DNA from: Magnetospira sp. QH-2
Lineage (GTDB): Bacteria > Pseudomonadota > Alphaproteobacteria > Rhodospirillales > Magnetospiraceae
Reading direction: 5' to 3'
DNA: 64,000 nt
Assembly: GCF_000968135.1 (NCBI RefSeq)
Contig: NZ_FO538765.1
Coordinates: forward strand, 1,751,819-1,815,818
Every line of letters begins with the position of its first letter. Within the stretch, counting starts at the first letter, position 1. The translations under genes and the position numbers were made by a program. Under the pieces are notes generated by a model. That model was not told the DNA's origin. It saw nothing but the letters and a program-made list of their open reading frames with translations, and searched no databases. Below are positions 15,376 to 19,520 of this stretch, piece by piece.

Positions 15376-16584
15376 TCAGCGTACGGCAGCTTGCGCCAGG
15401 GTATAGACCGTCATCCGGCGGTCGACCCCGCGCAATGCCTGCTCACCCAACGATATACAGCGATCCGCCGTGATTTTTGCGAACTGATCGGAGAGTAACA
15501 AAGGCTGGTCGAGGGTCTTGCAGAAGCCCTCAAGGCGCGCGGCTTCGTTGGCTGCCGGGCCAATGACGGTGAATTCCAAGCGTTCGGGAGTGCCGATATT
15601 GCCATAAGTCACATCCCCCATATGCAGGGCGATTCCATAGCCCAGCGGTTCTTCTCCGGCGGCTGTGCGTTCACGGTTCAGGTCATCCATGCGGCCCATG
15701 GCGTCGGTGGCGGCGGCTAGGGCATCAATACAGGCTTGCCGATGAATAGGGCATTTCTCCGGATTGGGAACGGGGGGGGCATCAATGGGGAAGATCGCCA
15801 GTACGGCATCGCCCACATAGCGCAATACTTCGCCACCGTGACCCAACACCGCCCCAGCCATGCATTCAAAGAATTCATTGAGCAGATTAAGATACTCCGG
15901 GCGCGGTAGAATATCGGCCATTGGGGTCGAGCCGCGCAGATCACAAAACCAGATCACCGAGTGAATATCATCGCCGTCGCCACGACGCACTTGGCCATCC
16001 AGCACCTTGGCGCCTGTTTTTCCGCCCAGATAGGTTTCCAGAACCGTCCGCGCGGTATAGCGCAGGGCGTGAACCTCCAGAGCGCGGGACAGGGGGATGG
16101 TCATGGCGGTAAGTCGTTCGATCTGTTCGTCGTCAAATCCTTCCGGTCCATCGCTGGCCAGGGTGAGCGCATGCAAGCTACCGTCTCCGAACACAATTGG
16201 CAGGGCCAAATAGTCCGTATAGCCCTCGTCCACCAAGTCGGGGAGGATGTTGTAGTCCAACTGAATGTCTGGTCCGATTAGGCGCCGCCGGATGGTCGAG
16301 CCATCTTCGAATATCTTGGCATAGGGACTCTTAAGATACCTGTCCGTCTCGATGATCTCATGGGGAGCCCGGACTTCAGCTACTTCTTCTTGCCCAAAAA
16401 CCCAGGTGTAGCTGGTGCCGATGGCCTGAGGATGGAGAGTCCGCAGGGTCACCCGTGCGCGCCCCACGGGAATGTCAAAAGCTCTCAGCTGCTGGCTCAG
16501 TCCGGTTAGAAGTTCCGGAACGGACGACGCGCTCCAGCCGTAGCGGTAGAGCCAGTCATCAATGGGATCATCGGAGGGTTTCAT
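15376..16584 (-). CDS. class III adenylate/guanylate cyclase with N-terminal sensory region
   Basis: A 402-residue cytoplasmic protein. The first 190 residues have no membrane segment and look like a degenerate GAF-type or LuxR-type sensory region (YTWVFGQEEVAEVRAPHEI, GYTDYLALPIVFGDGS). Residues about 200-400 are a class III cyclase domain. Metal ligands sit in VIWFCDLRGSTPMAD and YVGDAVLAIF, and the transition-state Asn/Arg in PAANEAARLEGFC. The usual adenine-selecting Asp before the VIG motif is Thr (EFTVIG), as in class IIIb enzymes. It is convergent with the oxidoreductase operon, ending four bases from it. The product should be cAMP, but this is not proven. Confidence 0.85.
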   Translation of the reverse strand: MKPSDDPIDDWLYRYGWSASSVPELLTGLSQQLRAFDIPVGRARVTLRTLHPQAIGTSYTWVFGQEEVAEVRAPHEIIETDRYLKSPYAKIFEDGSTIRRRLIGPDIQLDYNILPDLVDEGYTDYLALPIVFGDGSLHALTLASDGPEGFDDEQIERLTAMTIPLSRALEVHALRYTARTVLETYLGGKTGAKVLDGQVRRGDGDDIHSVIWFCDLRGSTPMADILPRPEYLNLLNEFFECMAGAVLGHGGEVLRYVGDAVLAIFPIDAPPVPNPEKCPIHRQACIDALAAATDAMGRMDDLNRERTAAGEEPLGYGIALHMGDVTYGNIGTPERLEFTVIGPAANEAARLEGFCKTLDQPLLLSDQFAKITADRCISLGEQALRGVDRRMTVYTLAQAAVR

Positions 16585-16653
16585 AGCTTTTCATATGGCT
16601 CGAATTCCGCTTCCGGCAAGGGAGTAAACAGGATGGAACGCCTTGCCGTGGAT

Positions 16654-16719
16654 AAAAAAACCGGGCAGCTGGAAAGCCGCCCGGTTCAAGTATAGCGCAT
16701 GTTCGGGAGGAACACGCAG
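16654..16719 (-). ncRNA. predicted trans-acting small RNA with anti-Shine-Dalgarno hairpin loop
   Basis: Reading the minus strand, an 8-bp hairpin (16717-16710 with 16704-16697) presents the loop CTCCC, giving CCTCCC across the loop edge, complementary to a ribosome-binding site. About ten unpaired bases follow, then a strong Rho-independent terminator: a 12-bp stem with one G-U pair (16686-16675 region with 16670-16659) ending in seven Ts (16660-16654). No gene on the minus strand upstream would need this terminator, and the cyclase gene begins only 70 bases downstream. This two-hairpin plan is that of alphaproteobacterial CUCCUCCC-loop sRNAs (suhB/mmgR-like, alpha-r families). The 5' end is not certain and may lie as far as about 16790. 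Confidence 0.55.
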
Positions 16720-16821
16720 AGAGAAGTTATAAGGATTACTCTCGCCAGCTATATTTGGCAAAAGGATGGTCAATCCTCATAAGATCTCCGCGTAAGCTAG
16801 GTCTAGAGATCCCCGCTATCA

Positions 16822-16835
16822 TTGATCCATATCAA
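16822..16835. promoter_or_regulatory. perfect FNR/Anr-type operator
   Basis: TTGAT-CCAT-ATCAA matches the FNR consensus TTGATN4ATCAA exactly. It lies between the predicted sRNA (minus strand, about 105 bases away) and the PAS kinase (plus strand, 172 bases away). A second imperfectly spaced repeat, CATTGAT-N8-ATCAATG, follows at 16843-16864. A -10-like TAGCTT (16799-16794, minus) would place the site near -41 of a minus-strand start around 16787. Oxygen-responsive control of the sRNA, the kinase or both is inferred. Confidence 0.6.
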
Positions 16836-17006
16836 TTTTGAACATTGATTTTCTCCCATCAATGATCGGGTTGTATTCATTCTAAAGAAGAGGATAGCGA
16901 TAAAGTTATGCATGGTTACCTTTTTTTGATCGCGTGCCATGGTCATCGCAGGTGAATCGAGCTACGCTTCCTGCAGAAAAAGGACGGACACAGAATTGGG
17001 GCGGGC

Positions 17007-19520
17007 GTGCTTGCCGGGCTGACAAACATATCCAACGAGACCATTGCGGCTCTGGTCGAACAGGTGCCTACCCCGATTCTAGTGGCCGAAGGGGAAGCGC
17101 AATCCGTCCTTTATACCAATCGCGCCTTCAGGGAGATGATCGGCTATTCCATCGCTGAGATCCCCGACGTGGCCCATTGGTGGCCGCTTGCCTATCCGGA
17201 TCCCGACTATCGACAGCAGGTGATGGAAAAATGGAGCCAGTTGGTGGCCGAGGCTCGCGGGGCGGGGGGCGCCATTGCGAATATGCTTGAAGTCATTCGC
17301 TGCAAGGACGGCAAGTCGCGCTGGTTCGAGGCGGGAGGGTCCATCAGTGGGGACAAACTGTTGGTCTTCTTTACCGATGTCACCGAGCGGGAACAAGCCG
17401 CACAGCGATATCGGGAACTGTTTGATCATATGAGCAGCGGGGCCGCGGTCTATCGGGCCGTGGATGACGGCTCGGATTTCGTCTTTTTGGATTTCAACAA
17501 GGCCGGACAGGTTATCGAGAAAATCGATTTGGGGGACGTCGCCGGGCAGCGAGTCTCGGAGATATTCCCTGGGGTCGAGTCATTCGGTTTTTTAGATGTG
17601 CTCAGGCGCGTCTGGGAAACGGGTGTTCCCGAGCATATGCCCATTTCCTTCTATCAGGATGAACGGATCACCGGCTGGCGAGAAAACTATGTCTATCGAC
17701 TGCCGGGCGGAGAAGTGGTGGCCATCTACGACGATATCACCGACTTCAAGGAAACCGAGCGCAAGCTCCTGGCGAGCGAGGACAAGTACCGCCATATGGT
17801 CGAAGGCGCAAAAGCCGTGGCCTGGCGCCTGGACCTGGAAACCCGTCTATTTACGTATGTTTCTCCCCAAGCAGAGCATTTGCTAGGTGTTCCAGCGGAA
17901 AAATGGACAGATTTCGAATTCTGGGCCGATCACATTCACCCGGACGACCGGGAGCAGGCGGTTTCATTTTGCAATGCAGAAACCGCCAGGGGAATTGATC
18001 ACGAGTTCGAATACCGAATGTTGCGGGATGATGGCAGCCTGGTCTGGGTCCGCGATCTGGTGGTCGTCGATCACGACAACCTGGGGCGGCCGGTCGAGCT
18101 TTCCGGCATTTTGGTTAATATTGATGAGCAGAAAAAAGCTGAAATCGAGCGCGACAACTTCTTTGATTTGTCTATCGACCTGCTTTGCGTGGCAGGGACC
18201 GATGGCTATTTCCGACGATTGAATAAGGCGTGGGAGACCACCCTGGGATGGTCCAAAGAGGAACTGCTTTCGAAGCCGTTTATGGAGTTCATCCATCCCG
18301 ATGATGTGGCCCCGACCATCGCCGAGGTCGAGCGGCAGATGGGCGGCGAGAGAGTCATTCATTTTGAAAATCGCTATCTATGTAAGGATGGCAGTTGGAA
18401 GTGGTTGGACTGGAGTAGCGAGCCAGAGCCGGACGGCACCATCTATGCCGTGGCCAGAGATGTTACCCAACGCCGCCGAACGGTTGAGGTCCTGCGCTCC
18501 GAGCGGCAACGGGTCTATGCGGTCTTGGATGGTCTGCCCGCCGTCGTGTCGCTGCAGACCGCCGACGGACGAATCCAGTTTGCCAACCGCCGTTTTCGAG
18601 AGATTTTCGGCATGGTCGATCAGCCTCCCTATCGTGATGCCGAAGGGGGATCGCCGAGCCTGAACGTCATCCAAAGCCGGGCGCCCACCGAATGGGAGTG
18701 GGATTCCGAAGACGGCCATGTCTACCAACTGAGCGCCTATCCGTTCGAAGACGCGGATGGGACTGAAATGGTGCTGGAGACCGGATTGGATATTACCAGT
18801 CTCAAGCAGACACTCGATGAACTGGTTCGGTCAAACGCGGAACTGGAGCGTTTTGCGTTCATCGCGTCCCACGACCTTCAAGAACCGGTGCGGTCGGTGG
18901 TCAGTTTCGCCCAGTTGCTGGAAAAAAGGCTGGAAGGACTGTTGGACGAGGATACCCAGGAATTTCTGGACTTTGTCATCGTGGCCGCGCAGCGGATGGG
19001 CGAACTGGTCAACGGATTGCTATCCTATTCCCGTTTTGGCGCCACGGCCCGGCGGTTTGAGACCGTGGACTGCAATCACTTGGTGGAACAGGTGGTCTCG
19101 GGCCTGAGAGCCATGGAGTTGAACGCCGAGGCCCAAATTGATTGGACCGACCTGCCCACGGTGATGGGCGATCCGCTGCAACTGAGTGAACTTTTCCAAA
19201 ACCTCATAGCCAACGGCATTAAGTTTTCCCGCGAAGGGGCCGCGGTTCGGATTGATATTTCCGCGGTACCGGGTGACGGCCTTTATGAGTTTACCGTGAG
19301 CGATAACGGAATCGGCATCGCCTCGCGCTACCAAGAGGAGATTTTTGAGGTGTTCAGGCGTCTGCACTATGCCGACGAAATTCCGGGCACCGGCCTGGGA
19401 CTGGCCATCTGTAAACGGGTGGTGGAGCGCCATGGCGGACGGATCTGGCTGGAGTCCGAAGAAGGCGAGGGGAGCCGCTTCAGGTTTACCCTCCCGGCTC
19501 CGTCCAACATCCCGGAATAG
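17007..19520 (+). CDS. multi-PAS sensor histidine kinase (soluble)
   Basis: An 837-residue kinase with no membrane segment. It carries about five PAS/PAC units in tandem (roughly residues 10-120, 130-250, 255-380, 385-490, 500-600), then HisKA with phospho-acceptor His622 in IASHDLQEPVRSVVSFAQ, and an HATPase domain (N box LIANGIKFSR, G1 SDNGIGI, G2 GTGLGLAICKRVVERHGG). SHDLQEP is the phytochrome-like HisKA subtype. The start is a GTG at 17007 with only a weak GGGGCGGG ahead; the next ATG would remove part of the first PAS. A receiver-only protein follows after 151 bases and is a possible partner. Confidence 0.88.
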   Translation: MLAGLTNISNETIAALVEQVPTPILVAEGEAQSVLYTNRAFREMIGYSIAEIPDVAHWWPLAYPDPDYRQQVMEKWSQLVAEARGAGGAIANMLEVIRCKDGKSRWFEAGGSISGDKLLVFFTDVTEREQAAQRYRELFDHMSSGAAVYRAVDDGSDFVFLDFNKAGQVIEKIDLGDVAGQRVSEIFPGVESFGFLDVLRRVWETGVPEHMPISFYQDERITGWRENYVYRLPGGEVVAIYDDITDFKETERKLLASEDKYRHMVEGAKAVAWRLDLETRLFTYVSPQAEHLLGVPAEKWTDFEFWADHIHPDDREQAVSFCNAETARGIDHEFEYRMLRDDGSLVWVRDLVVVDHDNLGRPVELSGILVNIDEQKKAEIERDNFFDLSIDLLCVAGTDGYFRRLNKAWETTLGWSKEELLSKPFMEFIHPDDVAPTIAEVERQMGGERVIHFENRYLCKDGSWKWLDWSSEPEPDGTIYAVARDVTQRRRTVEVLRSERQRVYAVLDGLPAVVSLQTADGRIQFANRRFREIFGMVDQPPYRDAEGGSPSLNVIQSRAPTEWEWDSEDGHVYQLSAYPFEDADGTEMVLETGLDITSLKQTLDELVRSNAELERFAFIASHDLQEPVRSVVSFAQLLEKRLEGLLDEDTQEFLDFVIVAAQRMGELVNGLLSYSRFGATARRFETVDCNHLVEQVVSGLRAMELNAEAQIDWTDLPTVMGDPLQLSELFQNLIANGIKFSREGAAVRIDISAVPGDGLYEFTVSDNGIGIASRYQEEIFEVFRRLHYADEIPGTGLGLAICKRVVERHGGRIWLESEEGEGSRFRFTLPAPSNIPE

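Follow-up and report, generated by a model that had tools for sequence, protein, structure and literature searches.

Between a cyclase-like gene (16584-15376, minus strand) and a PAS-histidine kinase gene (17007-19520, plus strand) of Magnetospira sp. QH-2 lies a gap of 422 bases that harbors the elements of a predicted small RNA gene together with a presumed activator site (Table 1). All positions refer to the window, that is, the whole stretch of 64,000 nucleotides that was analyzed. The protein encoded by the cyclase-like gene gave no match in a Pfam scan at E 1e-5; at E 10, Guanylate_cyc was found with 24.2 bits, just above the cut-off of 21.9. A weak GAF-like match precedes the Guanylate_cyc match in this protein.

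Table 1. Coordinates of the features found or predicted in the gap between the two divergent genes.
Feature	Position	Strand	Remarks
Predicted small RNA, about 134-136 nt	16654..16789	minus	5' end 16787-16789, 3' end 16654; three-hairpin fold
Hairpin 1, long, interrupted	16720..16789	minus	Full pairing from 16789
Predicted 14-codon frame MRIDHPFAKYSWRE	16736..16780	minus	In hairpin 1; 3' half of a 28-codon ORF
Hairpin 2, 9 bp	16696..16718	minus	Loop CUCCC at 16709-16705 = anti-Shine-Dalgarno
ACUUG directly 5' of the terminator	16687..16691	minus	Feature shared with the order's suhB-type RNAs
Hairpin 3, intrinsic terminator, 13 pairs, T7	16654..16687	minus	Paired part 16687-16658
Presumed -10 element TAGCTT	16794..16799	minus	Class II position for a box centred at -41.5
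FNR-type palindrome without mismatch, TTGATCCATATCAA (presumed activator site)	16822..16835		Sole exact match in the window

A sequence-only reading of this region had placed a small RNA of two hairpins at 16654-16719 of the minus strand, one exposing CTCCC/CCTCCC in its loop and the other being a strong terminator with seven Ts that no protein gene would need. Most of this was confirmed. The CUCCC hairpin (hairpin 2, 16718-16696) has a 9-bp stem and a 5-nt loop; the CUCCC of the loop is preceded by a C to give CCUCCC, and each of its bases has an unpaired probability of 1.00 in the ensemble. The terminator consists of 13 pairs and a run of seven Ts at 16660-16654, and no protein gene runs into it, the upstream neighbour (17007-19520) being divergent. 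The extent of the RNA had to be corrected, since the proposed interval represents its 3' half and is preceded by a third, long hairpin (16789-16720).

The minus-strand fold from 16787 to 16654 comprises these three hairpins and has a minimum free energy of -59 kcal/mol (z = -8.9; 200 shuffles with a mean of -29.1 and sd of 3.4). Taken separately, hairpin 1 (16722-16789), the CUCCC hairpin and the terminator hairpin gave z-scores of -4.9, -5.3 and -5.6, and each of them beat 500 of 500 shuffles. The raw folding energy of the locus is not extreme in the window, where stronger folds occur in GC-rich stretches elsewhere. A hairpin with a CTCC loop located at most 60 nt upstream of a terminator has a single occurrence in the window, where just four terminators were found on both strands, and a hairpin of this kind with a terminator was found in none of 20 first-order Markov controls, the pattern having been defined after the candidate was seen. 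In a partly redundant set of 180 loci (585,235 bases, 89 terminators) the arrangement occurs in seven distinct forms, the candidate included, and four of the six other forms sit in loci retrieved as suhB matches.

Upstream of hairpin 1 lies the perfect FNR-type palindrome. Exact TTGATN4ATCAA is present at seven places in the 4.05-Mb genome, one of them in the window, versus none for the reversed-pattern control. Three of the seven boxes appear intergenic, as judged by frames of at least 150 codons: that of the candidate and two others, which precede multihaem-cytochrome-like and pyridoxal-enzyme-like genes (named by eye); a fourth, in locus L040, is uncertain. With the box at the class II position (-41.5), transcription is predicted to start at 16787 and the -10 element falls at 16799-16794, where TAGCTT matches TATAAT at three of six positions, with T1, A2 and T6 all present. 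The chance of such a T1/A2/T6 match within one base on either side is about 0.04-0.06 in the intergenic gap, and class II -10 spacing is absent at both other intergenic-looking perfect boxes. When 16 candidate 5' ends were tried, the energy per base was best at 16788-16790, at most three bases from the start predicted by the box. At the level of sequence, the locus has what would be expected of an FNR-controlled small RNA, a -10 element and an FNR box at the class II distance. A generic promoter scan of 16400-17100 gave no sigma-70 site, which is expected if an activator replaces the -35 element and lends no support to the promoter either. A second inverted repeat, CATTGAT-N8-ATCAATG at 16843-16864, adjoins the FNR box and has FNR-like half-sites with a different spacing.

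A palindromic box in a region common to divergent genes could instead serve the PAS-histidine kinase gene (17007-19520), the hairpins then acting to stop antisense or stray transcription. At class II spacing, at which the plus strand was checked, its counterpart has one of the three key -10 positions, whereas the minus strand has three of three; moreover, stray transcripts could be stopped without a three-hairpin RNA that exposes a loop. We consider this explanation rather unlikely. Bidirectional use of the box is possible, for the kinase gene alongside the small RNA.

As to the protein that might bind the box, the host genome contains eight PF13545 matches above the cut-off and ten in total. 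One protein (L119) is Fnr-like, scoring 139.5 bits against the Fnr model of NCBIfam (under the cut-off of 228), and an ESLSR recognition motif was read by eye in this protein and in two others (L121 and L124). Also by eye, L119 shows just two N-terminal cysteines, so that oxygen sensing is uncertain and the regulator could instead be a relative that responds to NO.

Hairpin 1 includes the 14-codon frame, and translation of MRIDHPFAKYSWRE would make the transcript a small coding or dual-function RNA with the peptide as its main or second product. The frame is complete and ends within the hairpin, and GGAG (16789-16786) lies five bases before the ATG, a good spacing for a ribosome site (16789-16778). 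Precedent for a coding RNA is provided by the FnrL-bound RSs0019 of R. sphaeroides, which was renamed Pos19 and is termed a small coding RNA in the part of the source available (PMC5036791). However, the start codon and the ribosome site both lie in paired parts of hairpin 1, a transcript starting at 16787 would have its GGAG cut, and frames as short as this one easily arise by chance. We therefore give a coding function a small but appreciable probability.

The cyclase ATG is situated about 70 bases past the terminator on the same strand, and the MRIDHPFAKYSWRE frame could serve as a leader peptide; the whole structure might accordingly represent an attenuator or riboswitch in the cyclase 5' leader, controlling read-through from the FNR promoter into 16584-15376. 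Folding revealed no antiterminator, however: forcing the 3' arm to stay unpaired costs the best alternative fold 21 kcal/mol, the 5' arm has no strong partner, and hairpin 3 stays in place when the 5' end is shortened as by a ribosome. In addition, no riboswitch family reaches its Rfam cut-off at the locus, and the MRIDHPFAKYSWRE peptide does not contain a run of a single amino acid. On these grounds, an attenuator in front of the cyclase gene appears quite unlikely.

The distribution of the candidate was studied at the level of the family (two genomes besides the host) and of the order (316 besides the host), the genus being represented by the host alone. BLAST gave no match to the candidate in the two other family genomes and, with no more than two candidates scored in each genome, no convincing homologue elsewhere in the order; the matches outside the host were snippets of 17-36 bases, mostly of the terminator or the FNR box. 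Two single-sequence covariance models were used as well, one of the whole RNA (R1; 317 genomes, host included, with strict filters and few candidates per genome scored) and one of two hairpins (R2; 31 genomes, host included). Over the 316 other genomes of the order R1 revealed nothing convincing: 13 of them had matches at E <= 0.05, and an unpaired CTCC was predicted in two of the 13 (L105 and L116). R2 gave 21 other matches at E <= 1, with an unpaired CTCC predicted in one (L142). The remaining matches were mainly due to the terminator, as seen in the alignments inspected (10 of 13 for R1, 8 of 21 for R2), and the weak R2 match in a member of the family (G001, 26.8 bits) is without any CTCC. 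As few candidates were scored per genome, a diverged copy could escape these searches. In L105, a hairpin with a CCUCCC loop and a terminator are located at 1501-1584 on the minus strand, immediately after a frame of 506 codons whose product ends in LGFF; this element is possibly a 3'-UTR-derived anti-Shine-Dalgarno (anti-SD) RNA.

Cyclase relatives in the order reach at most 58% identity among those listed, and a scan of 29 loci of such relatives revealed no perfect FNR box and five boxes with one mismatch. No other genome of the order has a match to the PAS-histidine kinase at E <= 1e-120 (three candidates per genome scored), and the search of the order gave a clear orthologue for neither of the two flanking genes. 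The candidate locus may be specific to the Magnetospira sp. QH-2 lineage. That the searches gave no conservation of the candidate would also fit a chance arrangement, in which an intergenic inverted repeat and a terminator stand together without regulatory role. Against this speak the z-score of -8.9, the three separate hairpins with z about -5, the box and the -10 element at the expected distance, and the absence of the pattern from all 20 Markov controls, and we regard mere chance as very unlikely.

In an Rfam scan of the locus no family reached its cut-off. The nearest ones were Burkholderia ncS025 (22.3 of 46 bits) and suhB (RF00519; 18.8 bits, E 0.18, cut-off 41), and the only other alphaproteobacterial small RNAs among the matches up to E 10 on the candidate strand were SorY (12.9 of 111 bits) and SorX (12.2 of 46.6 bits), both far below cut-off. 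Rfam contains a cuckoo-type family and an AbcR family; among the matches up to E 10 at the locus there was neither an alpha-r14/cuckoo/CcsR nor an AbcR family, nor were FnrS, RSs0019 and RSs2461. The idea of a small RNA gene with an exposed anti-SD loop and its own terminator stands as far as the sequence goes, and a promoter signal absent from the sequence-only reading adds to it; the proposed membership in suhB/MmgR fails by Rfam score. The signature UUCCUCCC ... ACUUG-terminator is suggestive of a divergent suhB member, and so is the first rank of the candidate in the window for an order-level suhB-type model, though at a low score (see below).

In the candidate, UUCCUCCC is followed by 13 nt, ACUUG and the terminator. 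Matches to suhB at E <= 0.001 were detected in 26 of 31 genomes (host included) and lie above the cut-off in 11 of the 31; the host has a standard suhB at C1:1285551 (53.2 bits) and one weak match (31.0 bits). Among the 30 suhB matches listed, 14 have CCUCCC and then ACUU after 3-10 nt, and seven more have ACUC after CCUCCC (by-eye reading). A comparison of terminators, which is circular on the suhB side because the model that retrieved the suhB loci rewards these motifs but is not circular on the background side, revealed ACTTG near the stem at 12 of 28 terminators of suhB loci versus one of 102 others (candidate excluded), the looser ACT(T/C) at 21 of 28 versus 7 of 102, the strict pair UUCCUCCC ... 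ACUUG at 8 of 28 versus 0 of 102, and CCUCCC followed by ACU(U/C) at 18 of 28 versus one of 102 other distinct terminators. This one, in L142, is itself suhB-like, with 32.6 bits to an order-level suhB-type covariance model built from 23 suhB matches (R3). On the background side, some true suhB terminators escape the terminator finder: L107, missing from the count, contains at 1409-1484 a likely suhB-type RNA (35.2 bits to R3), near a terminator matched by R1 in genome G171. A 50-bp tandem array of terminator-like GC-rich units (L049, 1260-1539; 5.6 copies, 90% matches) adjoins the standard suhB of the host and overlaps its 3' end.

On the 64-kb window, R3 found the candidate as the top of two matches (14.4 bits, E 0.019). 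Over 35 loci retrieved by R1 and R2 it was tenth of 25 matches with the same 14.4 bits, and the terminator alone is enough to bring loci that lack a suhB core to 16-23 bits. The R3 alignment contains a 10-nt insertion, GAACAUGCGC, directly after the CCUCCC of the candidate, and this insertion corresponds to the 3' arm of the CUCCC hairpin and one further base. A simple history would therefore be that an insertion caught a single-stranded anti-SD in a hairpin; the R3 score does not prove that the candidate arose in this way from a suhB-type RNA. With suhB/MmgR/alpha-r8 (RF00519) the candidate shares the U tail, the anti-SD UUCCUCCC and an ACUU(G) that immediately precedes the terminator. It differs from suhB in its CCUCCC-ACUU spacer of 13 nt (3-10 in suhB relatives), in having CUCCC in the loop of a 9-bp hairpin with no CUUGGAC-type stretch before it, and in its extra 5' hairpin and FNR box. 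A box with at most one mismatch was found within 150 nt upstream of none of 23 suhB loci, so that FNR control is not a family trait.

Presentation of an anti-SD in a hairpin loop, on stems that are free in sequence, is described for the alpha-r14/cuckoo RNAs (NfeR1, SmelA075) and the CcsR RNAs in the available parts of the sources (PMC3927594, PMC10746234), and the candidate resembles them in this respect. According to the available part of one of them, NfeR1 has three loops with CCUCCUCCC and alpha-r14/cuckoo RNAs have three hairpins each with CCUCCUCCC (PMC10746234); compared by description, the candidate differs from NfeR1 and from this family pattern in its one loop, CUCCC. The same part reports that the anti-SD loops of NfeR1 silence ntrB by occluding its ribosome site (PMC10746234), and by analogy the CUCCC loop should cover GGGAG sites. 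AbcR1/2 (alpha-r15) is, in the portion available, a three-stem RNA with two CU-rich anti-SD motifs (PMC7143759); set side by side by description, the candidate likewise has a CU-rich anti-SD in a three-stem RNA, unlike AbcR1/2 with its two motifs. FNR-family promoter sites are described, as far as the available parts go, for FnrS of E. coli and for the FnrL-bound RSs0019 and RSs2461 of R. sphaeroides (PMC4263372, PMC8139620), with FnrL binding at the putative RSs0019 promoter (PMC4263372), and the candidate can be likened to them by description as a predicted small RNA whose presumed promoter carries an FNR-family site. Further literature was available in part (PMC9549626, PMC10253847, PMC6532209, PMC12724286). 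In the literature covered, no FNR-controlled anti-SD RNA was found in alphaproteobacteria, which is not proof of absence, and nothing matching was found on small RNAs of Magnetospira.

Ribosome-binding sites complementary to the loop region CCUCCCG were sought with the pattern CGGGAGG-N3-9-ATG, which gave 84 matches in the genome versus 14 for the reversed pattern. In the first 30 CGGGAGG sites by coordinate, 20 of the 30 ATGs open a frame of at least 80 codons; by eye, we take some of these 20 frames to encode a thiolase, a tricarboxylate-type binding protein and a DUF1127-like protein. Such complementary sites demonstrate a capacity for pairing rather than targets, and pairing through one anti-SD loop of 5-6 nt would be short and unspecific. 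Within the list of CGGGAGG sites, CGGGAGGTTGTCAATG occurs six times and CGGGAGGCGGCAAATG four times, perhaps as parts of repeated mobile elements.

We favor, with moderate confidence, the interpretation of the candidate as a trans-acting, FNR-activated small RNA of about 134 nt that masks ribosome-binding sites and has a probably suhB-derived core. At low oxygen, an FNR-family activator, or a DNR/NnrR-type relative if NO is present, would bind 16822-16835; transcription of the minus strand would then start near 16787 and would stop at 16654, at the terminator belonging to the RNA itself. In hairpin 2, the CUCCC loop could pair with the GGGAG-type Shine-Dalgarno sequences of several mRNAs and thereby block ribosome entry, and Hfq is a probable binding partner of the U-rich tail. 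A suhB-type RNA is the probable ancestor of the core, about ten inserted bases having put a formerly single-stranded CCUCCC into a hairpin loop. What the analysis shows is the sequence elements, the predicted fold, the spacing and the signature in common with suhB; transcription, binding of FNR and of Hfq, pairing with targets and descent are inferred. A bolder proposal, to which we attach a low probability, is that of a dual-function counterpart of FnrS: lineage-specific and oxygen-responsive, derived from suhB by insertion, provided with an FNR promoter, and coding for a 14-residue peptide in its 5' domain.

Magnetosome formation likewise depends on low oxygen, and the host is probably magnetotactic. 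If real, the candidate would be an anti-SD RNA that couples FNR, the oxygen switch, directly to the control of translation, and it would mean that suhB-type RNAs can change their topology and acquire a new input.
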